From a virus: a stretch of DNA of 59,590 nucleotides. Numbering within the stretch: position 1 is the first letter of the stretch; every line of letters begins with the position of its first letter. The position numbers and the translations under genes are program-made. Shown piece by piece: positions 33,842-59,590 of this stretch. The DNA lies in IMG/VR virus record IMGVR_UViG_3300017917_000757, positions 1 to 59,590 of that record. The stretch is one strand, 5' to 3'. A model generated the notes under the pieces. That model was given only the letters and a program-made list of their open reading frames with translations. It did no database searches and was not told the DNA's origin.

Positions 33842-34138
33842 ATGGAACATCAACCAATCATCGAGCGACAGATCAACGGCGGAACCCAGAAGGTCTACCG
33901 CTTCGACAACGGCCAGGGCGCCAGCGTTGTGCGCCACATGTACAGCTACGGCTCAGATTCCGGCAAGTGGGAGCTGGCAGTGATCCGGTTCACGGGCGCT
34001 GGAGTCTGGGACTGGACGCTGGACTACACCGCGCCGATCACGGACGACGTCATCGGCCACCTCGACTGGCATGAGGTCGAGTCCTACCTCGATCAGATCG
34101 CCGCCCTGCCCAATCAACAACTCAAGGAAGCAGCATGA
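33842..34138 (+). CDS. Small protein of unknown function, 98 aa
   Basis: I chose ATG 33842 after GCGAGGC. The product (MEHQPIIERQINGGTQKVY) is beta-rich with several Trp, then a short helical C-terminus. It overlaps the next gene by 4 nt. Family not recognised. Confidence 0.65.
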   Translation: MEHQPIIERQINGGTQKVYRFDNGQGASVVRHMYSYGSDSGKWELAVIRFTGAGVWDWTLDYTAPITDDVIGHLDWHEVESYLDQIAALPNQQLKEAA

Positions 34139-34506
34139 CCACTGACACCATCGACCTGAAATCCAGACTGTCTCAGTTCACCGGCACCACGACCTACTTC
34201 TACCATCCGCTGTACCCGTGGATGCGCTACACCGATGGCATGAAGTTCTTCTGCGAGAACGCTGGCAACGGCGCCTACTGGTTCCTCGACATAATGGGCA
34301 CCGAGCTGAAGAAGCACGCCGCCAAGCATCGACGTCTCAACATCCACATGAGCGTCGGTGGCGGAGGCGAGGGCCGCATCGAAGCGACGCCCGAAGGACG
34401 TGTCCGCCCCATCTGGACAAAGTTCATCCCGTGGACCGACTGCCCGTCCGACTTCTACGAGTTCCGCCTGACACACGGCGTCCTCTACCTGCCATCCGAG
34501 GACTGA
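34135..34506 (+). CDS. DUF6876-like protein, 123 aa
   Basis: The block LSQFTGTTTYFYHPLYPWMR, then YTDGMKFFCENAGNGAYWFL is characteristic of the DUF6876 family of small phage and bacterial proteins. The rest is a beta sheet with His-rich turns. Activity unknown. It overlaps its upstream neighbour as ATGA. Confidence 0.8.
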   Translation: MTTDTIDLKSRLSQFTGTTTYFYHPLYPWMRYTDGMKFFCENAGNGAYWFLDIMGTELKKHAAKHRRLNIHMSVGGGGEGRIEATPEGRVRPIWTKFIPWTDCPSDFYEFRLTHGVLYLPSED

Positions 34507-35371: not shown

Positions 35372-36625
35372 ATGCCCACATGCGAACAGACCGTCGCCAT
35401 GCTCAAAGAGAAGCTGGTCGAGCAGGATCAATTCATCCAGAAGATCAGCAGCGCACCGCTTATACCGGCTGTCGTAATCGAGAAGGCCAAGGCTGGCATG
35501 CTCGTCGCAGCCGGACCTCGGCTGGTCATGGCGCACAACTTTGCTGGCGCAGACGTCGGCTCGACGGTGATGATCCACCCCGAGACGCACCAGGCGCTCA
35601 GCTTGTCGCCGTTCAAGAACAAGCTCGGCTCTCCGTGCGTTGTCGAAGGTGTCATGCCCGACGGTCGCATCGAAGTCCTGGCATCTGGCGACAAGCGCAT
35701 CGTCGTCAAGGCGGCGGCGCTCAAGAACGTCAAGATCGAACCCGGCAGCACGGCGCTGCTCGATGACTCAGGGTTTGTGCTGATGGAGCTGGTCTCGCCT
35801 CCCAAGATCGAGGTCAGCCGCCACACCCACGTCCATTGGGATCAGATCGGCGGCAACGACAGGGCCAAGCGTGAGCTGCGCGAGGCAGTCGACATGATCC
35901 GCGGCGACTCGTCCATCTTTGCGGCGTACGGAGCCAAGGCACCCAAGGGTGTGCTGCTCTACGGTCCGCCTGGCTGCGGCAAGACGATGCTCGGCAAGGC
36001 TGTGGCTACCGAGCTGGGCAGCGACGCGTTCATGTACGTCAAGGCGCCCGAGCTGCTGAACATGTACGTCGGCGCAACAGAAGAGCGCATCCGCTCCCTG
36101 TTCCGCTCGGCTCGTGACCACAAGGCACGCACCGGTCAGACGGCGGTGATCTTCATCGACGAGGCGGACGCCATCCTGCAAGAGCGTGGCACCGGTCGCT
36201 CCGGCGACATGGAAAAGACCATCGTGCCTTCGTTCCTCACGGAGATGGACGGCATCTCCGAGTCCGCAGCCATGGTCATCCTGGCTACGAACCGTCCCGA
36301 CACCCTCGATTCAGCCGTCATCCGCGACGGTCGCATCGACGCCCGCATCCTCATTGACAGACCAGGCCCGAAGGAGGTGACCGACATCTTCCGCATCAAC
36401 CTCAACGGCATGCCAACCCACGACTGCATGGTCGAAGACCTTGCAGCGCAGAGCACTGACTTGCTGTTCAACACGCCGAGCATGAAGGCTCGCATCAGCG
36501 GCGCGATGGTCGCTGGTGTGGTCGAGCGTGCCAAGCGTGCAGCCGTTCGCCGTGACATTGCAATGGGCAAGGTCAGCGGCATCACCATGGTCGACATCAC
36601 GACCGCCATCACCGAAGGAGAATGA
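35372..36625 (+). CDS. Proteasomal-type AAA+ ATPase (ARC/Mpa/PAN-like), 417 aa
   Basis: ATG 35372 after ACGGAGAAACC. Layout: short N-terminal helix, OB-like beta domain (about residues 40-145), then an AAA+ domain. Walker A is GPPGCGKT at 198-205, pore loop Met-Tyr-Val-Gly at 231-234, Walker B FIDEAD with Asp263 and Glu264, and Arg318 and Arg321 in RDGRIDARI serve as arginine-finger candidates. This coil-OB-AAA order is that of proteasomal and FtsH-like unfoldases. The C-terminus ends TEGE, without the HbYX dock used to open proteasomes, and no transmembrane segment or protease domain is present. It probably unfolds or remodels proteins alone or with a host or phage partner. Confidence 0.85.
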   Translation: MPTCEQTVAMLKEKLVEQDQFIQKISSAPLIPAVVIEKAKAGMLVAAGPRLVMAHNFAGADVGSTVMIHPETHQALSLSPFKNKLGSPCVVEGVMPDGRIEVLASGDKRIVVKAAALKNVKIEPGSTALLDDSGFVLMELVSPPKIEVSRHTHVHWDQIGGNDRAKRELREAVDMIRGDSSIFAAYGAKAPKGVLLYGPPGCGKTMLGKAVATELGSDAFMYVKAPELLNMYVGATEERIRSLFRSARDHKARTGQTAVIFIDEADAILQERGTGRSGDMEKTIVPSFLTEMDGISESAAMVILATNRPDTLDSAVIRDGRIDARILIDRPGPKEVTDIFRINLNGMPTHDCMVEDLAAQSTDLLFNTPSMKARISGAMVAGVVERAKRAAVRRDIAMGKVSGITMVDITTAITEGE

Positions 36626-36626
36626 C

Positions 36627-36836
36627 ATGGCAACCCAACTGCGCAAAACCGTACACCACGGCAATGAAGGCGACAGCGCAACCCTCTCGTCGCTTCGTCC
36701 TCCGAGCATCGACGGCGCTGTGAAGGAGGCGGACTCCGCAATGAAGCGTATCGCTGCCGAAGCCCGGCGCCAGCAGGCTGAAGAGCGAGAGCGCATGAAG
36801 CGCGAGAAGCGTCGTTGCTGCGGATGCGGGTGCTGA
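36627..36836 (+). CDS. Small basic protein with Cys-rich tail, 69 aa
   Basis: ATG 36627, 1 nt after the ATPase stop, with AAGGAGA upstream. A charged helix (MKRIAAEARRQQAEERERMK) ends in RRCCGCGC. The four cysteines may bind metal or be modified. It is co-translated with the ATPase, so it may be its partner; no family recognised. Confidence 0.6.
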   Translation: MATQLRKTVHHGNEGDSATLSSLRPPSIDGAVKEADSAMKRIAAEARRQQAEERERMKREKRRCCGCGC

Positions 36837-36837
36837 C

Positions 36838-37176
36838 ATGCTGCTCATCGACGAACTCCAGCTCCTGGGCTGGCTTGCGTTGGCGACAGCCAGCGTCAGC
36901 TTCACCATCACGAAGACGCAGATGTTTGACTTCGTGCGTGACCGCCTGCCCGAAGGCAAGGTGAGCGAACTGATGCATTGCCCGTACTGCATGGCGCATT
37001 ACGTGGCGATGTTCTTTGTTGCGCTCTACGACCCGACACCCTTCACCGGTCGTTGGTATGACTTCATCGCTTGCGTGTTCATCGTTGTCACGCTGGCGAC
37101 ACTGGTCATCCAGGTGATCTCGCTGATCGCCCGCATCTTGAACGTCCTCGTGACGTACGACCCAACCATGAACTGA
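36838..37176 (+). CDS. Membrane protein with CPYC motif, 112 aa
   Basis: Membrane segments near residues 6-24 (LQLLGWLALATASVSFTIT), 53-64 and 74-101 (FIACVFIVVTLATLVIQVI). A conserved-looking loop, SELMHCPYCMAHYVAMF, carries a CPYC pair. This layout matches small phage membrane proteins of the DUF1360-like kind. Function unknown. Confidence 0.75.
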   Translation: MLLIDELQLLGWLALATASVSFTITKTQMFDFVRDRLPEGKVSELMHCPYCMAHYVAMFFVALYDPTPFTGRWYDFIACVFIVVTLATLVIQVISLIARILNVLVTYDPTMN

Positions 37177-39955: not shown

Positions 39956-39998
39956 ATTTCCAAGCTCTTTCCAACACCTCCAGCTTCCCCGCTTCGTG

Positions 39999-40026
39999 AC
40001 CCGCCAATCGGCGGGTTTTGTTTTTT
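39999..40026 (+). terminator. Intrinsic terminator
   Basis: Stem ACCCGCC/GGCGGGT with AATC loop, then TTTGTTTTTT. Confidence 0.9.
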
Positions 40027-40043
40027 GTAACCACGGAGAAACT

Positions 40044-41402
40044 ATGAGGAACTATCCGTACCTCGATCGCATCGCCCTGTCGATGGACGATCAGCAGATG
40101 ACTGACTTTGCTCGCCGCGTTGCTCGGCGAAGCCTTGCCAGTCCCAATGTCAATCAGCTCCTGGACATGCTGTCGCATTTGCCAAGCAATGTCACGTCCA
40201 AGACGATGAGCTTCTTGTCCGACGACTACGAAGAAGGCACACGCATGTTTGAGGTTCGTCTCTACATGCGCAACAACAGCATCTATGACATGGATTTGGA
40301 CGATCTGCGCGACCTGATCAACGGATGGCAAAGCGTCGCCACCGATTGGGATGATATCGAGCACTACCTGTATCGGCACGTCGGCCTTCGTAAGTGCGAC
40401 GAATGCGGCGAATGGGAGCTGAACACCCATACCCGCACCACCTGGGGCAGTGATGACCGCGTGTGCCGTGACTGCATCGACAACAACTACCGCTGGTCTG
40501 ACCGCTATGACGACTACGTTCACGAGGAATACGTGCGCGAGGCGATCGACCAGAACGGTCGCAGTTGCATCATCCATGAGGACGACGACGACTTTCATTA
40601 CGACGAGGACGAGGAAACCTACGTTCACATCGACTACAGCCCTGGCTCTCGCCTGATCGGCACTTACCACAGCAGCAAGGGTCATCAGCGCCCGATCATC
40701 AGTCCATGGACAAAGGCCCGCCGCCGCTTCATCGGTGTCGAGCTGGAGGTCGAGACGCGTGATGTGTCTCGTACCGACAAGGTTCAGGTTCTGCACAAGA
40801 TCATCAACAACGAGGTCTGGGGCAGCTCGGTGTTCTTCGAGAACGACGGCTCGCTGAACAACGGCTTCGAGATCATCAGCCAGCCGATGGGCATGGACAA
40901 GCATCGTGAGCTGTGGTCTTGGCTAACCGACAAGGACGCCATCCGTGGGCTGCGTTCGCACAACACGACGACGTGCGGACTGCACGTTCACATCAGCCGC
41001 GACACGCTGTCCAAGCTCCAGGTCGCCAAGATCGTGACGTTCGTCAATGACCCCGAGAACGAGCCGCTGATCCGCGCTGTCGCTCGCCGGTATGCCGAGG
41101 GCTACTGCCGCATCAAGACCAAGAAGATCGGCGCTGCTGCGCAGTCGGAGGACCGGTACGAAGCGGTGAACATCACGCCTCGCAAGACCATCGAGTTCCG
41201 CATCTTCAAGGGCACGCTCAAGTACGAGTCCCTGATGGCGGCAATCCAGTTCTCCAACGCCGTCGTTGACTTCTGCGGTCGCTCGACTACGTCGATCCGC
41301 GACCTCAAGTCCGACCAGTTCCTGGACTTCATCCGCTCCGACGAGACCGGTGACTTCGACCTGCTCGTCCCGTACCTCGACAACCGTCTCGAAACTGCTT
41401 GA
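40044..41402 (+). CDS. Amidoligase (COOH-NH2 ligase, GS-like fold), 452 aa
   Basis: ATG 40044 after CCACGGAGAA. The N-terminal half has a zinc-ribbon-like Cys set (Cys118, 121, 141, 144) and acidic linkers (HEDDDDFHYDEDEE). The C-terminal ligase domain shows FIGVELEVE near residues 229-235, DGSLNNGFEI from 268, CGLHVHIS at 311-318 (His314, His316), and TIEFRIFKG with Glu384 and Arg386. This matches the amidoligase family, which uses ATP to join a carboxylate to an amine. A class II glutaminase follows 27 nt downstream. Substrate is unknown: a peptide, protein or cell-wall precursor is possible. Confidence 0.85.
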   Translation: MRNYPYLDRIALSMDDQQMTDFARRVARRSLASPNVNQLLDMLSHLPSNVTSKTMSFLSDDYEEGTRMFEVRLYMRNNSIYDMDLDDLRDLINGWQSVATDWDDIEHYLYRHVGLRKCDECGEWELNTHTRTTWGSDDRVCRDCIDNNYRWSDRYDDYVHEEYVREAIDQNGRSCIIHEDDDDFHYDEDEETYVHIDYSPGSRLIGTYHSSKGHQRPIISPWTKARRRFIGVELEVETRDVSRTDKVQVLHKIINNEVWGSSVFFENDGSLNNGFEIISQPMGMDKHRELWSWLTDKDAIRGLRSHNTTTCGLHVHISRDTLSKLQVAKIVTFVNDPENEPLIRAVARRYAEGYCRIKTKKIGAAAQSEDRYEAVNITPRKTIEFRIFKGTLKYESLMAAIQFSNAVVDFCGRSTTSIRDLKSDQFLDFIRSDETGDFDLLVPYLDNRLETA

Positions 41403-41429
41403 TCAATTTACATACAAGGAATCCAAATC

Positions 41430-42416
41430 ATGTGTCTGCTCGTACAACAAACTGCCGCGTCCAACTTCTCTGACGAGTTCCTGGCTGACGTCTACACCAA
41501 GAACCAGGACGGCCTGGGTGTGATGTACGCCGAAGGCGGCAAGCTCCATGTCTTCAAGGCTCTGCCTGCCAACTCGCAGGACTTCATCGACTTCTACCGC
41601 AAGCACGCCGAAGGCAAGGACTGTGTGTGGCACGCCCGCATGCAAACGCACGGCGACATCGACTTCGACAACTGCCACCCCTACAAGGTGACCGACGACG
41701 TCTGGCTTGCGCACAACGGCATCCTGTCCACCGGCAACAACGCCGACAAGTCCAAGTCCGACACCTGGCACTTCATCCACAACTTCATCCGTCCTGCGCT
41801 GATCGGCAACCCCGAGCTGCTGACCGACGAGAACTGGCAGAAGTTCGTTGGCGAGATCATCGGCCGCAGCAACAAGTTTGCGCTCGTGCGTGCTGACGGC
41901 GCCGTTGTTGTGATCAACGCTCAAGCTGGCGTCAACTACGAGAACGCCTGGCTGTCCAACACCTACGCCTGGTCGTACTACAAGTTCAGTGGCCACCGCT
42001 CCGGTGGCTACACCAACATGTACAGCGGCTACGGCGGCTACCGCAGCAGGTTCGAGGACGAGGACTACGAGGACTACTACAGCAGCTACGGCACCAACTT
42101 CAAGGACAAGACCACCGAGGCCAAGGGTGGGTACGAAGGCGCCAAGGACAACACCGTGTTCCCGCCCGTCACGATCACCGCCGCCCAGGTCAGGCCGTAC
42201 GTCAAGGCTGCATGGAATCAGTGGTCTCGCCGTGGCGTTGCCGGTGTGGAGCAGTGGGTGTTCGATGCCCCGCACAAGGCTGCTGCGCTGCTGGCCTACT
42301 GGTACGAGGACATGGACGACGTTCAGGAGCTGGTCGAAGACTTCCCTGACACCGCTGCCGAATGGATTTCCGATCTGTTTACCACCGACAGTATCAGCCC
42401 TAGCCTGATTAACTGA
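41430..42416 (+). CDS. Class II glutamine amidotransferase, 328 aa
   Basis: Begins Met-Cys, so Cys2 is the expected N-terminal nucleophile after Met removal. Typical class II features follow: HARMQTHGD from His68, and AHNGIL with His95, Asn96 and Gly97 as the oxyanion and binding motif. A Gly/Tyr-rich low-complexity insert lies at about 190-225. The domain should release ammonia from glutamine, or act as an amide-cleaving Ntn hydrolase. Adjacent to the amidoligase, it could supply its amine or reverse its bond. Confidence 0.85.
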   Translation: MCLLVQQTAASNFSDEFLADVYTKNQDGLGVMYAEGGKLHVFKALPANSQDFIDFYRKHAEGKDCVWHARMQTHGDIDFDNCHPYKVTDDVWLAHNGILSTGNNADKSKSDTWHFIHNFIRPALIGNPELLTDENWQKFVGEIIGRSNKFALVRADGAVVVINAQAGVNYENAWLSNTYAWSYYKFSGHRSGGYTNMYSGYGGYRSRFEDEDYEDYYSSYGTNFKDKTTEAKGGYEGAKDNTVFPPVTITAAQVRPYVKAAWNQWSRRGVAGVEQWVFDAPHKAAALLAYWYEDMDDVQELVEDFPDTAAEWISDLFTTDSISPSLIN

Positions 42417-52928: not shown

Positions 52929-53013
52929 CGTCCGTAGCATGCACCCGTCAAGCGAGGGGGCTCCGTCGTAACTAGGAGCCAAGTGGCCACCCCTCCACAC
53001 GACGGGACGGACG
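52929..53013 (+). repeat. Nested inverted repeats upstream of the integrase
   Basis: Four nested pairs: CGTCCG/CGGACG (52929-52934, 53008-53013), CCCGTC/GACGGG (52944-52949, 53001-53006), AGGG/CCCT (52955-52958, 52991-52994), GGCTCC/GGAGCC (52959-52964, 52975-52980). They form one long imperfect hairpin, possibly a regulatory RNA leader, operator or terminator between gp49 and int. Confidence 0.65.
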
Positions 53014-53064
53014 CGAGTACCCCACCCATCTGCGCCACAAAAATCCGTTGTTCGTGCTACCTTC

Positions 53065-53086
53065 ATCCCGCGGTCTGCGGCGGGAT
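53065..53086 (+). repeat. Hairpin immediately before the integrase start
   Basis: ATCCCGC (53065-53071) and GCGGGAT (53080-53086) form a 7-bp stem with an 8-nt loop, ending 10 nt before the integrase ATG, next to its AGGAAAGGA site. It may regulate integrase translation. Confidence 0.6.
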
Positions 53087-53096
53087 AGGAAAGGAC

Positions 53097-54113
53097 ATGT
53101 CCATTCACCGTCGCGGCAATGTGTGGTGGTATTCGATCAGCATCAGGGGCAACAAGTACCGCGGCTCCTGCAAGACTGAAGACGAGCAGCAAGCCAAAGA
53201 GTTTCACGACGACCTCCGCGCCAAGCTCTGGCGCACGGGAATGCTGGGTCAGAAGCCCCGGCGCACCCTCGAAGAGGCCTTCGATCGCTTCCTGGAAGAA
53301 CGCAAACACAAGCGCACGGCCAGGGAAGATTGGAGGTTCGCCGACTGGTGGAAGTCCAAGCTCAAGGTCCAATGGCTCGACGAAGTCACGCCTGATCTGG
53401 TGAAGGAAATCCGTGACGGGGAGGCCTCCAAGGTCAAGCCAGCCACGGTCAACCGCAAGCTGGCCTTCCTGCGGGCGGTTGTGCTCACGGCGTACCGTGA
53501 ATGGCAGTGGATCGAGTCGGCCCCGAAGTTCAGGCTTTTGCCCGGGGAGGTCCAGCGGCGCAGGTTTCTTCAGCCGCACGAGGTTCTCCGCCTGGTCGAG
53601 GCTCTGCCGGAGCCCTATGCGTCGGCGGCGATGTTTGCCGTGTCCACGGGGCTGCGTCAGGCGAACGTGCTGGGGCTGCGCTGGGACGACGTTAACTTAG
53701 CCAAGCGGGTTGCGACGTTCCCGGAGCAGGTCATGAAGAACGGTCTGCCGTTCTCTTGCCCGCTCAATGAGACTGCCGTTGGGGTGATCCGCCGCCAGCT
53801 CGGCAAGCACGACACCTACGTGTTCTGCAAGCCGGACGGGCTGCGGGTGAAGGCGGTGCCCTCGAAGATGTGGAAGAGGGCGCTGGAGCAGGCGGGGCTG
53901 GACGATGTGCGCTGGCATGATCTGCGGCACACATGGGCCAGTCTGATGCGGCAAGCTGGCGTAGGTCTGGACGACCTGCAAGAGCTTGGCGGTTGGGAGT
54001 CACGCATCATGGTGCAGCGGTATGCCCACCTGGATGTGAGCCACCTGACCACCGTGGCCTCTGTGCTCGACGGGGCTTTCGACCGTGGGGCACAAAAAAG
54101 GCACACTGCCTGA
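53097..54113 (+). CDS. int: Tyrosine integrase, 338 aa
   Basis: I chose ATG 53097 (MSIHRRGNVWWYSISI) after AGGAAAGGA, instead of an upstream GTG. The N-terminal arm-binding domain is followed by a core-binding helical domain (about 65-160). Catalytic residues: Arg187 (TGLRQANVL), His274 and Arg277 (HDLRH), Trp300 in place of the usual His, and Tyr309. It should recombine attP with a host tRNA-Lys gene. attP lies 41 nt downstream. Confidence 0.95.
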   Translation: MSIHRRGNVWWYSISIRGNKYRGSCKTEDEQQAKEFHDDLRAKLWRTGMLGQKPRRTLEEAFDRFLEERKHKRTAREDWRFADWWKSKLKVQWLDEVTPDLVKEIRDGEASKVKPATVNRKLAFLRAVVLTAYREWQWIESAPKFRLLPGEVQRRRFLQPHEVLRLVEALPEPYASAAMFAVSTGLRQANVLGLRWDDVNLAKRVATFPEQVMKNGLPFSCPLNETAVGVIRRQLGKHDTYVFCKPDGLRVKAVPSKMWKRALEQAGLDDVRWHDLRHTWASLMRQAGVGLDDLQELGGWESRIMVQRYAHLDVSHLTTVASVLDGAFDRGAQKRHTA

Positions 54114-54519: not shown

Positions 54520-57500
54520 TCAGTCGCTCGCCATGGCTGCGTCGCGGAAGTCCTCGCCGGAGGCCATAGCCGCCTTGGCAACCCGGGCGTAGATGCGCTT
54601 CTCGTGCTCCATCAGCCGGTTCTTGCGGCGCACCACCTCGTCCGGATCAGCCCAAGGCTTGGCCTCGTAGTTGCGCAGGCTTGCGCGGGCTTCACGCAGC
54701 TCCTGGGTGGCGCCGGAGACCACGGCATGGGTGCGCATCAGGCCAGGGTACTCGGCCAGGATTTCCGAGCGGCGGTCCGGGTACTGCTTGTATTCGGCGT
54801 ACACGGTGTCGGCCAGCTCCTTGACGCGGCGGAATGACCCGGCGTCGTAGGAGTCCGGCACGGTCGCCGTGAAGCGGCCGATCAGGGGCAGGGGCGTGTT
54901 CTTGATCTCTTCGCCACGAGCCACGCGCACCCCGGTCGAGGCACCCTTGTAGGTCTCGTTGACCACGCCAGGCAGGTACGAGCCAATCAGGAAGTCGATC
55001 GCCGCAGGGTTGATGTCCACCAGGCCGGAGCGTGCCTTGTTGCCACCGGTCACCTCGTTCAGTGAGCGGGCAATGCTCTGGCTGATCGGGGACACGGAGC
55101 GGAACGCCGACTCGCTGTTGGGAATCTTGGCCCCGCCGAACAGGCTGTCGTCACGGTAGATCGGAGCGCCGTAGCGGTTCTCGTTCATCACCCATTCCAC
55201 GATCGGCAGCGTGGCCGTGGGCGACACACCCTTGAGCACCGTGCCAGCGATGGACTTGCTGTCCAGGCCAGAGGTTCCCATCGGGGAGAAGGCCTCGACG
55301 GCGGTGGTGGCGACACGCTTGGCGGTCTCGCTGATCGGCTGCACGCCCAGCAGGGTGTCCACGCCGAAGTGACCCAGGGCGTAGAACGCGTTCCAGCCGT
55401 AGGGGATCGGGATGGCCATGCCTGGGACGTTGGGCATGATCACGGCGGACGTCGCACGCTTGTAGACCGGCAGCTTGTCCAGGTCGTTGCGGCCAGCCTC
55501 GTCGTCATCACCCATCGCACGGGCCACCAGGTTCATCATCGCGCCGAAACCAACCATCGCGGCAGCGTAGTAGCTGGCCTTCTTGCCGTTGAAGCTGATG
55601 GTGTAGTCCGGGTTGATCTTGAAGAACAGGGAGCCGAGCTTGGCCGTGCCTTGCAGGGCCGGGTTGAAGAACAGGTAGAGCTGGCGCACAGCCTTGACGG
55701 AGCCGCGCATGTTGAAGTTGACGGTGATCTCGCCAGCGAACTTCGCGGCCTCGTTGCGGGACATGCCGCCTTCCTTGGCGACCATGTAGGCCACCAGGCG
55801 AGGAGCAATTTCCATCGGGGTCGTGAAGTGCTCGATGGCGGTGAGCACCTTGCCGAACTTGTCCTTGGCGTGCTGGAACTTGGAGGTCTCGCCCAGCAGC
55901 TCGTGGATGTCCTGGACCTGTTCTTCCAGACCCTTGCGGTTGAGGAACGTGGTCAGGCCACCTTCGGCCTTCATCTCCTTGTACGCCGCCATCAGGTCCG
56001 GATCGACGCTGATCTTGGAGCCGCGGTTGGACGCCATGAAGTAGGCGACCTTCACGGCCTTGGGCAGCAGCGTCATCATCCGTGCGGCCTGGGCCTTGGA
56101 GATGCGGTTGTCCGAGGCGGCGTTGAAGAACAGGGTCTGGGCATCGCGCAAGAAGTTGACCGGTGCCCACGCCGGGTTGTAGGTCGTGAGCATCTGGCCG
56201 ACCGTGCGGTTGAAGCGGCCGATCGCCTCCATGAAAGCGTTGGCTTCTGGCGGGTAGACCATGCCGTGGATGGCTTCGGCAAACGAGCCAGCGCTGGTGT
56301 CCTTGAACTTGATCGTGACGGGGATGCCGTTGATCTTGGCAACCATCACGCTCTTGTCGTTCATGTACTGGTCGTTCTCGCGCTCGACCACCTGGCCGGT
56401 CTCGTCGATGACACGCTTGAACTCGACCTCGTTGATCACGGCGTAGTTCGGGTCGTAGTTGTTCTCGAAAAGAGCGATGACCTTCTGGGCAACCAGGTTC
56501 TTCTGACCACGGATCAGCGCCGCTTCCATGCCAAGGATGGTGCGAGCCAGGATGTCGGTCGCTTCGGTGCTGCGACCCATCGAGCGCTTCTCGATGCCCT
56601 TGACGTTGAACTTTGTGCCGACCAGCTTGGCCGGGTCATCGAACTGATCCAGCTCAGGGCTCACGCCAGACAGGTTGACGTAGTGCTTGTAGCGCTTCAT
56701 CAGCTCGGCGGCGCCCAGCACTGTCTTGCCGTCCGGGGTGGTGTAGTTCTTGGAGCTGATCATGCCCATGCGGACCTGATAGTTGATCTTGGCCTCGGAC
56801 ATCTTGTCCGTCAGGCGACCGATCTCCATCAGCTCGTTGTAGAACTTTGCGCCCTTGATGGTACTGAGGTAGTCGCGGGCAACCTCGGTCTTCATGCCGG
56901 AACCGCCGTCAGGCATGTCCTTGTTGATGCTGGCGATCTGACGGTTGCGCTCTTCTGCGTGGCGAGCCAGCAGGAAGCGGTTGATGTCGTCGTAGTGAGC
57001 GCCCTTGGCCTTGGCATCCTCGACCCACTTCATGATCGGCTGCACAAAGTTCTCGCGGAAGCTCTCGACCACGGCACCAGTGCGGCGCTCGTAGAGTTCC
57101 AGCGCTGTGCGTACGTCCATGTCTTCGGTGATGCGGCCCTTTGCGCGGAGCGACTCGACCAGGTCAAACACCGGACGGTATTCGTTCTGGAAGCGGGTGA
57201 TCTGGTCACGCATCCAACGCTTCATGCCGGTCAGGTTGGTCATCTCGGTGAGCTTGACCATGTCCTGCGGAATCTTTTCGTCGATGAACAGGCCAGAGCG
57301 CTTGCGGCGCTGCACCTTGCCGAACTTCTGCATCACGCTCAGCACGGACTCGTAGTCGTCGTGGTTGGAAGTGACGTAGCCTTCCTTGTCGCGGATGTCG
57401 GCGCCCATCGCACGGAACAGAATCCAGCTCTGGGTGATCGGGTTGAAGCGGGCGTACGCCTTGGTGACGCCTTCCTTCTGGGCGAACATCTCGTAGACGC

Positions 57501-59590
57501 GCTCGACCTGGGAGAAGCGAACGCCCTGGTCCTCGCCCATGAAGGAGGGGACGCCACCGTTGCGGGCTGCGTTGCGTGCTGCTGCCAGGTGGAACGCCAG
57601 CTCAGCGTTGGTCAGGTTGCCCAGCCAGTCGGCGACACGGCCAAGGCCAATCTCGCGCAGGCCAGCAATCACCTTGCCGATGAATTGCTTGAACGCACCA
57701 ACAGCCTTGTTGTCGCCAGCCATGTCGGCCAGCACTTCCTCAATGGCCTCCAGCTTTGGCGTGCCCTCTGCGATCAGAGCATCAGCGGCGTTACGCACGC
57801 CAGGGTAGGTGCGGTACATGTTCTCCAGGAAGCTGTCGAGCTTGGGGCCCAGCAGAGCACGCAGACCCAGGTGGCCATAGACCTCGTGGAACAGCGTGAA
57901 CTCAACGTCAGCGTCTGACGCCAGCATGTCGCTGAACATGTAGACCGTGCCAGTCTTGGGATCGAACAAACCCTTGGCGCCCATGCCAGCATCGAGCTGC
58001 TTGACCACACGAGCGCGAACATCGTCGGGGAGCTGCATGATGTTGCGCAGCACCGCCACGTTCGGAGCGTTCTGGAATGTGCTCAGGATGCGAGCGACAG
58101 CAGCCTGCACCTTGGCAGACGTAACGACACCATTGAAGAACGGCTTTGCCGCACGCTTGAAGCGCAGCTCGTCAGGGTCACCCTCTTCGGTCTGGCCGTA
58201 GTCGCTGTTGAAGTCGAAGCCTTCGTCAGAGTTGGCCAGGTCGGAGACGCTCTCTTCACGGGCATCGTTTGCCTGACCGTATTCCTTGACGCCGAAGTAC
58301 TGCTCGATGGTCTGGCCACCGATCATTTCCTCCTGCATCACAGACTCGACGAAGTCGCCGACGATCAGCTCGATCTGCTCGGGGGTCATCGCACGCTCGC
58401 CGATTGCGTCGTTGAGCTTCTGGGCGTTGGCCATGATGATCGGCAGCTCGTCAGCCTGAGCGGCCAGCACGCGGGCGCGGAACTTCTCGAACAGGTCTTC
58501 CGGCAGGGCGTCCATGCCAATGAGCTGTTGCAGGTAAGGCGCCTTGGCGTTGACCTCGGCATCCTTGAGCACAGCCTTCTCGTGGCGCTCGATCCACTGA
58601 CGGAACTGCTCGACCTCGGTCGGGGCAATCGGACCGTCTTCGCCGACGATGCGCTCACGCAGGTCGGGGCGGGTCTTCAGGGCAAAGGCGACGTCCTGGA
58701 ACCATGCGGTCTCCAGGTCGCCAACCATTGCGCGAAGGGCCGCAAGCTCACGCTCCGGGATGCTGCCCGGGTTGCGCATCTGCGACAGCGAATAGTTCAC
58801 GAACAGCAGGTTCGGGAACGCGGTCTGCACGTCATCGGCACCACGCATCACGTCGTCAACGGTGCGGCGGGTTGCCAGCGCTTGGCGACGCTCGTTCCAC
58901 AGCTCGTAGGCGGTGCGCTCTGCGGCGGTGAAGTTGTTGATGGTGTCCGGGGCTGAGCGCAGAACCTTGTGCATGGAACGCAGCCATGCCTCACGGTACA
59001 CATGCTGATCGCCGTTGGCCTGGACGTACTCGACCATGCGGGACTGGAGGGCGATCTGGCCGCTCAGGTCCAGCATCTTGCGGGGGATGTCGTAGCCGCT
59101 GGCACGCATGGCTTCCACCAGGTCGCCGAACGTGAACTCCTTAGCCTGCATCGCCTGCTGGGCAAACTTCAGGGCGTCAGCATCCTTGATGCGGCCGGAC
59201 TTGAGGTCGCCGACCAGGCGGTAGGCAGCAGCACGCGGGGCGTCCAGGTCTTCCTGGATGGCATTGAGGAGCGCCGACTGAACCTGCGGCATTGCCCTGG
59301 CCTTCTCTTCGGGAACGCCGAAGCGACGCAGGAACTGCTCGTCGGTCATGTCGGACTCACGGCGGGACTTCTCGTCGCGGCTGCGCTCTGTCTCGTAGAT
59401 GCGCTCGATGTCCTTGCGGTTGCCGATTTCCTTGAGCATCTCGCGGATGAAGCGAGCAGACGGCTCGACCACGGAGTCTGCCTCGGCAGCGGTCAGGCCT
59501 TCGCCGATCGCTTGCGAGCGGGTCTGCGACACCTGGTATTCGAGGTGGCGCATCGAGCGGTAGAACAGGACGGCAAGACCACGGGATGAC
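54520..59590 (-). CDS. Giant virion-associated polyvalent protein, C-terminal part
   Basis: Continuation of the gene whose start is at 3365; the frame is open through the window end. It holds residues about 1,090-2,778. A metallopeptidase-like HEVYGH motif lies at residues 1657-1662 (FHEVYGHLGL), with no distal ligand confirmed. Long coiled coils follow. A C-terminal LPD38-like region (about 2,200-2,550; LYLFFNPALQGTAKLGSLFF) is typical of polyvalent phage proteins. The protein probably travels with the DNA or lines the ejection path and may modify host proteins. Any apparent start at 59553 is internal. Confidence 0.85.
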   Translation of the reverse strand, partial: SSRGLAVLFYRSMRHLEYQVSQTRSQAIGEGLTAAEADSVVEPSARFIREMLKEIGNRKDIERIYETERSRDEKSRRESDMTDEQFLRRFGVPEEKARAMPQVQSALLNAIQEDLDAPRAAAYRLVGDLKSGRIKDADALKFAQQAMQAKEFTFGDLVEAMRASGYDIPRKMLDLSGQIALQSRMVEYVQANGDQHVYREAWLRSMHKVLRSAPDTINNFTAAERTAYELWNERRQALATRRTVDDVMRGADDVQTAFPNLLFVNYSLSQMRNPGSIPERELAALRAMVGDLETAWFQDVAFALKTRPDLRERIVGEDGPIAPTEVEQFRQWIERHEKAVLKDAEVNAKAPYLQQLIGMDALPEDLFEKFRARVLAAQADELPIIMANAQKLNDAIGERAMTPEQIELIVGDFVESVMQEEMIGGQTIEQYFGVKEYGQANDAREESVSDLANSDEGFDFNSDYGQTEEGDPDELRFKRAAKPFFNGVVTSAKVQAAVARILSTFQNAPNVAVLRNIMQLPDDVRARVVKQLDAGMGAKGLFDPKTGTVYMFSDMLASDADVEFTLFHEVYGHLGLRALLGPKLDSFLENMYRTYPGVRNAADALIAEGTPKLEAIEEVLADMAGDNKAVGAFKQFIGKVIAGLREIGLGRVADWLGNLTNAELAFHLAAARNAARNGGVPSFMGEDQGVRFSQVERVYEMFAQKEGVTKAYARFNPITQSWILFRAMGADIRDKEGYVTSNHDDYESVLSVMQKFGKVQRRKRSGLFIDEKIPQDMVKLTEMTNLTGMKRWMRDQITRFQNEYRPVFDLVESLRAKGRITEDMDVRTALELYERRTGAVVESFRENFVQPIMKWVEDAKAKGAHYDDINRFLLARHAEERNRQIASINKDMPDGGSGMKTEVARDYLSTIKGAKFYNELMEIGRLTDKMSEAKINYQVRMGMISSKNYTTPDGKTVLGAAELMKRYKHYVNLSGVSPELDQFDDPAKLVGTKFNVKGIEKRSMGRSTEATDILARTILGMEAALIRGQKNLVAQKVIALFENNYDPNYAVINEVEFKRVIDETGQVVERENDQYMNDKSVMVAKINGIPVTIKFKDTSAGSFAEAIHGMVYPPEANAFMEAIGRFNRTVGQMLTTYNPAWAPVNFLRDAQTLFFNAASDNRISKAQAARMMTLLPKAVKVAYFMASNRGSKISVDPDLMAAYKEMKAEGGLTTFLNRKGLEEQVQDIHELLGETSKFQHAKDKFGKVLTAIEHFTTPMEIAPRLVAYMVAKEGGMSRNEAAKFAGEITVNFNMRGSVKAVRQLYLFFNPALQGTAKLGSLFFKINPDYTISFNGKKASYYAAAMVGFGAMMNLVARAMGDDDEAGRNDLDKLPVYKRATSAVIMPNVPGMAIPIPYGWNAFYALGHFGVDTLLGVQPISETAKRVATTAVEAFSPMGTSGLDSKSIAGTVLKGVSPTATLPIVEWVMNENRYGAPIYRDDSLFGGAKIPNSESAFRSVSPISQSIARSLNEVTGGNKARSGLVDINPAAIDFLIGSYLPGVVNETYKGASTGVRVARGEEIKNTPLPLIGRFTATVPDSYDAGSFRRVKELADTVYAEYKQYPDRRSEILAEYPGLMRTHAVVSGATQELREARASLRNYEAKPWADPDEVVRRKNRLMEHEKRIYARVAKAAMASGEDFRDAAMASD
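59492..59590. repeat. Terminal redundancy, right copy (assembly overlap)
   Basis: Exact copy of bases 1-99; see the left copy. Confidence 0.9.

Follow-up and report, generated by a model that had tools for sequence, protein, structure and literature searches.

ARC/Mpa is the gatekeeper of the Pup-proteasome, and the question raised by the present locus is what a protein of this kind does in a phage and with which partners it may act. Here, we analyzed a 59.6-kb IMG/VR virus record over its entire length of 59,590 nucleotides (hereafter the window), in which three adjacent genes form the subject of this study:

35372..36625, plus strand: predicted ARC/Mpa-like AAA+ unfoldase (P0001), 417 aa, ATG start; assigned by profile, tree and domain order.
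36627..36836, plus strand: small CxC protein, 69 aa, with a polar start, a heptad helix (GAVKEADSAM) and a C-terminal CCGCGC; counterparts occur in other phages with the same cassette.
36838..37176, plus strand: DUF1360-like membrane protein, 112 aa, with three predicted transmembrane (TM) segments and HCPYCxxHY at C48/C51; assigned by hydropathy and profile.

The minus strand of the window carries the genes for terminase, portal/head-tail adaptor, major head protein and internal virion protein, and the genes for an ERF recombinase, a primase/helicase and an integrase are located further to the right. The closest terminases were those of a Pelagibacter phage, a Methylophilales phage and Burkholderia phage BcepC6B. 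The AAA gene sits in a plus-strand non-structural block, and the label of an early operon given to it in a preliminary description of this DNA is positional only. Several other genes of the window were also noticed, including a DUF6876 protein whose gene precedes the AAA gene by three genes (34135-34506, plus strand), a phage integrase family protein (52983-54113, plus strand), which suggests a temperate phage, and a 1,677-aa protein (54520-59553, minus strand) with matches in its C-terminal half to uncharacterised PHROG families of very large proteins. Virus contigs are often fragments, which bears on all counts of presence and absence given below.

P0001 is composed of a short N-terminal helix, a tandem OB region and an AAA module that matches Pfam AAA (PF00004) at residues 194-329 (E-value 1.3e-37). 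The motifs read from the sequence include Walker A (GPPGCGKT, 198-205), pore loop 1 (M-Y232-V233-G234), Walker B (FIDE, D263/E264), sensor-1 (N307) and the arginine fingers (R318/R321); all of them are invariant or nearly so across 26-30 aligned relatives, with the exception of the Y232 position, which is occupied by an aromatic or other residue. No beta-grasp insert and no GQYL/HbYX tail (the C-terminal residues are ...TTAITEGE) were found, nor is there a transmembrane segment or a protease domain within the protein. Thus, the complete set of core ATPase motifs with a Tyr-Val-Gly pore loop and the lack of an HbYX dock, a membrane anchor and a protease, all proposed in the preliminary description, hold for the protein itself. 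The helix-OB-AAA order given there also stands, but the single OB does not, as the N-terminal part corresponds to an ARC-like coiled coil plus tandem OB. With its motifs intact, P0001 would be an ATP-driven unfoldase acting as a hexamer.

Several lines of evidence place P0001 among the proteasomal ATPases. TIGR03689 (proteasome ATPase) was the top NCBIfam model (245 bits, residues 13-361), followed by CDC48 (189 bits), PAN (179 bits) and FtsH (175 bits), with the score of P0001 remaining below the curated TIGR03689 cutoff of 504.75 bits. Across 26 aligned relatives, the best E-value was 2.9e-98 for TIGR03689 and 2.4e-61 for the next model (CDC48). In a maximum-likelihood tree of AAA domains, for which GQYL-bearing bacterial proteins served as the ARC set and PAN was left out, bacterial ARC and the phage proteins formed one clade (UFBoot 98) apart from CDC48 and FtsH; ARC alone received a value of 100, whereas the placement of the phage clade as its sister was weak (60). 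The best cellular matches, obtained by a pattern-seeded scan of one genome per species in approximately 85,000 species, were mainly ARC genes, many of which are located beside genes for Dop/PafA (Pup deamidase/ligase) and Pup. A model built from 50 bacterial ARCs among these matches could be aligned to L009, a phage relative of P0001, over the coiled coil, the beta-grasp region and everything between them (311 bits, model positions 71-544). The order of coiled coil, tandem OB and AAA in P0001, as derived from the TIGR03689 match and from sequence only, agrees with that of ARC/Mpa. Judged by these comparisons, P0001 has its nearest relative in ARC/Mpa, the proteasomal ATPase of bacteria, and not in FtsH, CDC48 or clamp loaders, in line with the proteasomal-type unfoldase proposed earlier, and the AAA+ protein is almost certainly an ARC-related motor.

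In its predicted motor and front end P0001 is ARC-like, yet several features that mark ARC are missing. P0001 shows a gap at positions 453-496 of the ARC model, which corresponds to the beta-grasp part that contacts the 20S core in Mpa (PMC9599533); this region is partly present in phage relatives such as L009 and L014. The GQYL/HbYX tail is absent from all phage members outside the group that clusters with true ARC. In the search for a co-occurring protease or ligase, no 20S core was found in 49 records carrying AAA relatives and no Pup ligase in the 54 records searched (these contigs may be partial), and ClpP is absent from the window contig. ClpP-family genes are present in 9 of the 49 records, where they are not linked to the cassette. 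Proteins of the ARC type with a GQYL tail were observed in five other IMG/VR contigs (L038, L039, L040, L047 and L050), none of which contains a Pup ligase; these genes represent either host DNA or true ARC carried by phages. A different type of ligase was also considered. In the same plus-strand block of the window, 3.4 kb downstream (39996-42416), there is an Amidoligase_2-type protein followed by a class-II glutamine amidotransferase-like protein. This pair was ruled out as a pupylation-like ligase because the amidoligase occurs in just 1 of 49 records, being absent from the other 48 searched.

The two genes that follow the AAA gene proved to be part of a conserved cassette, whose order is ARC-like AAA+, small Cys-cluster protein (usually CxC) and three-TM DUF1360-like membrane protein with CPxC. 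In the window, one nucleotide separates the AAA stop from the small gene (the junction reads ...GAAGGAGAATGACATG) and one nucleotide separates the small stop from the membrane gene, and the coupling of a small Cys-rich protein to the AAA gene that had been described previously is therefore evident. When an alignment was used as query, approximately 50 phage contigs in IMG/VR were found to encode AAA relatives, unlike the search with a single AAA protein, which returned no match. Together with two Brevundimonas phages that carry relatives, they show that this protein, called unusual in the preliminary description, is not an isolated oddity. The cassette was identified in at least 19 non-redundant phages (near-identical contigs being counted once) on contigs of 16-608 kb. 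A profile search detected the membrane protein once each in 20 of the 49 whole records. In 19 of these 20, all of which also encode the AAA protein, the two genes are neighbours with the membrane gene downstream, the exception being a 533-kb phage. The distance between the two genes is 157-898 nt in the comparison set, which excludes the window record, and a small Cys-cluster ORF lies between them in every non-redundant case, with one extra gene in L016. A further cassette is present in L119/L121, and a scan for the DNA motif of the membrane protein, in which the AAA gene was not used, revealed another full cassette in a 480-kb phage. Thus, the preliminary description was right about the missing membrane anchor of the AAA protein itself, but it overlooked the membrane protein encoded two genes downstream as part of a conserved cassette. 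Many AAA relatives in the 49 records are without the membrane gene; among them, L023 and L025 have AAA and a Cys-cluster protein together. It was also observed that relatives of this kind, for which L010, L013, L019, L025 and L031 were noted, often retain a small Cys-rich protein (CGCG and CYCGAPGCGIGPF types) encoded no more than a few genes downstream of AAA. On the whole, we consider it very probable that the three genes constitute a functional unit.

An ordinary phage AAA+ remodeller captured from the host, with neighbours that are coincidental, would be another explanation. Phages often carry AAA+ ATPases (134 phage records had matches); however, the same gene order in 19 non-redundant and highly diverged phages contradicts this explanation, and we regard it as highly improbable.

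The small proteins share a cluster of Cys residues, which takes the form of CKC, CGC, CVC, CWC, CEC, CCGCGC, GCGCGG, CCGRSCC, CTPC or CC. CxC is present in 14 of 17 small proteins, with a combined shuffle probability of about 1e-21 when the per-sequence probabilities of those 14 proteins only are multiplied. The window protein has four Cys in total, all within the last six residues, in accordance with the earlier description of it as Cys-rich. In addition, the pattern phi-phi-x-x-phi-D occurs in the heptad helix of 8 of 17 small proteins, compared with 3.4% of charge-matched ORFs. This helix resembles that of Pup. A matrix made solely from 33 distinct Pup cores, after the resemblance had been spotted by eye, scored the small-protein group above its own shuffles (Fisher 1.7e-8) and above charge-matched ORFs (Mann-Whitney 2.6e-7), and only 1 of 300 column permutations of the matrix reached the observed value. 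Under stricter permutations that preserve the heptad, 6 of 200 reached the observed signal, and the reversed matrix still gave p 2.8e-4; therefore, part of the Pup-helix signal is generic to heptads. Each of four small proteins outside the original matrix test, two of which were found later, had P<0.05. The Pup-likeness of the helix is a statistical property of the small proteins as a group, and in the window protein it is weak or marginal (0.04 against shuffles, 0.11 against controls). Because the Pup models of Pfam and NCBIfam did not match any of the small proteins up to E 10, the small protein was not filed as Pup.

The most Pup-like helices were found in L023 (EDMLKGIDKVLDEK), whose gene adjoins an AAA gene and whose phage does not encode the membrane protein, and in L350 (AGVVNDIDEVLADA), from a contig with a terminase region like that of Gordonia phages. 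The L350 record includes the membrane protein, and no ARC-like AAA was detected in it, with the locus lying at the end of the contig. In a Gordonia-phage-like contig that encodes the membrane protein, and in which no AAA was detected, the CxC protein contains VVNDIDEVLADA (Pup: LLDEIDEVLEEN). L388 (G065, positions 1-1170) denotes such a contig with a Gordonia-phage-like terminase region, the membrane protein and no ARC-like AAA in the record; the Pup helix core of its CxC protein is near-perfect, and host ARC could be the motor. L097 (3681-4501) encodes a CGC small protein and a DUF1360-like membrane protein, and no ARC-like AAA was found in this 100-kb record.

As for the membrane protein, PF07098 (DUF1360) matches 11 of 17 members and phrog_781 matches 15 of 17. 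The window copy scores 18.2 bits, which is below the PF07098 cutoff of 21, while homologous relatives exceed the cutoff. Three hydropathic segments are found in nearly all members, and R34, C48 and C51 are invariant across the aligned proteins. Since K/R residues cluster in the first loop and, for the most part, in the C-tail as well, the CPxC pair is predicted to face the cytoplasm. No cellular homologue could be confirmed by the HCPYC pattern, and among 50,697 records of deposited phages only LR756500 matched the membrane protein with three queries. The protein also occurs without AAA, either beside a thioredoxin-like protein or elsewhere. In one such lineage, represented by L098 (1391-1702), L099 (3962-4306), L100 (3998-4306) and L101 (3986-4297), the DUF1360-like gene comes directly after that of a membrane-anchored thioredoxin-like protein and a few genes ahead of a large terminase-like gene.

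The reading of the cassette that we favor, to which we assign a probability of roughly 0.45, is a membrane-recruited ARC-like unfoldase, in which the small protein serves as a Pup-like adaptor linking the motor to the membrane protein. The AAA+ protein would form an ARC/Mpa-type hexamer with coiled coils, a tandem OB ring and the Tyr-Val-Gly pore loop, and would thread polypeptides. The small protein would be its dedicated partner: its flexible N-terminus could enter the pore, its Pup-type helix would dock on the coiled coil of the AAA protein, and where Pup ends in GGQ/GGE it carries a Cys cluster. Pup attaches to the coiled coil of Mpa in helical form, and its disordered N-terminus is threaded into the pore (PMC8755798); docking of the small protein is proposed by the same arrangement, and we give the docking of the helix on the AAA protein an even chance. 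The DUF1360-like protein would reside in the inner membrane and expose its CPxC pair to the cytoplasm, where it may bind the CxC of the small protein via a shared metal or a disulfide. Such a Cys link between the two proteins is conceivable rather than probable. The motor would thereby be drawn to the membrane, where it may pull on or dismantle membrane-bound complexes of the host or of competing phages with no protease of its own.

The Cys residues could also be the center of the system. It is possible that the CxC and CPxC proteins are a redox or metal-relay pair and that the AAA+ protein loads, unloads or remodels the CxC protein, in which case the Pup likeness would reflect a generic amphipathic helix. 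Conserved Cys pairs on both partners, predicted on the cytoplasmic side, are consistent with such a thiol or metal module, as are the thioredoxin-like protein with WCxxC or CxxC that precedes the membrane protein in another phage lineage and the heptad-preserving control, which weakens the specificity for Pup. On the other hand, a redox role leaves the ARC architecture unexplained, AAA and Cys-cluster proteins are found together without the membrane protein in L023 and L025, and the small proteins found later again scored as Pup-like. We consider this explanation unlikely. The ARC-like coiled coil, tandem OB and AAA, together with the beta-grasp-like region of some relatives and the ClpP-family genes in 9 of 49 records, might instead point to a phage ARC that feeds a host protease (host 20S, HslV or ClpP) for targeted degradation, as true ARC does. 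However, the phage members outside the true-ARC group lack the docking tail, no 20S core (49 records) or Pup ligase (54 records) accompanies them, P0001 is without the part by which Mpa contacts 20S (PMC9599533), and the ClpP-family matches, which are not tied to the cassette, may be capsid proteases. Such feeding appears quite improbable.

A broader form of the membrane-recruitment reading is that the cassette is a proteasome-free relative of the ARC-Pup system, in which a Pup-like protein links the motor to a membrane protein by a reactive or metal-binding Cys end and some actinobacterial phages, encoding only the Pup-like protein and its membrane partner, use the ARC of their host; we regard this as rather doubtful. 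If true, recruitment of the ARC-Pup type would serve another job in a widespread phage branch without proteasome, ligase or docking tail, and the cassette would be a compact three-gene system for studying how an AAA+ motor reaches the membrane. The cassette also places DUF1360 and phrog_781, both of them uncharacterised families, in a functional context. Our searches of open-licence papers yielded no account of ARC in phages, of a Pup-like protein in phages or of this cassette.

Several known systems can be compared with the cassette. p97 and FtsH are models of membrane-protein extraction, and FtsH, CDC48/p97 and PAN share the classical AAA module with P0001. However, all three gave lower profile scores for P0001, the ARC-phage clade of the tree excludes CDC48 and FtsH, and P0001 has neither the protease domain of FtsH nor the second AAA ring of CDC48. 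The membrane protein is like DUF1360 (PF07098) and phrog_781 in that its relatives match these families, although the window copy falls under the Pfam cutoff. In the isolated Brevundimonas phages vB_BpoS-Polewnik and Strzyga, which are of similar size, a homologous AAA+ protein with about 40% identity over the AAA part is annotated as 'proteasome-associated ATPase'; it differs in its N-terminus and is followed by unrelated genes, with no CxC or DUF1360 cassette. Compared with Pup, the phage small protein has a Cys cluster instead of GGQ/GGE, no match to Pup profiles and no ligase, and the likeness of the window copy is weak; yet these proteins are also small and polar, with a helix that as a group resembles the LLxEIDxVL pattern, a putative functional end at the C-terminus and a gene near that of the ARC-like protein. 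Finally, although P0001 differs from ARC/Mpa in the absence of the GQYL tail, the beta-grasp insert, the 20S core and PafA/Dop and in its coupling to a membrane protein, ARC/Mpa provides the best profile and the nearest cellular relatives, and the likeness extends to the coiled coil, tandem OB and AAA, the aromatic-Val-Gly pore loop and a small putative partner protein that is encoded next door and belongs to a group with a Pup-like helix.
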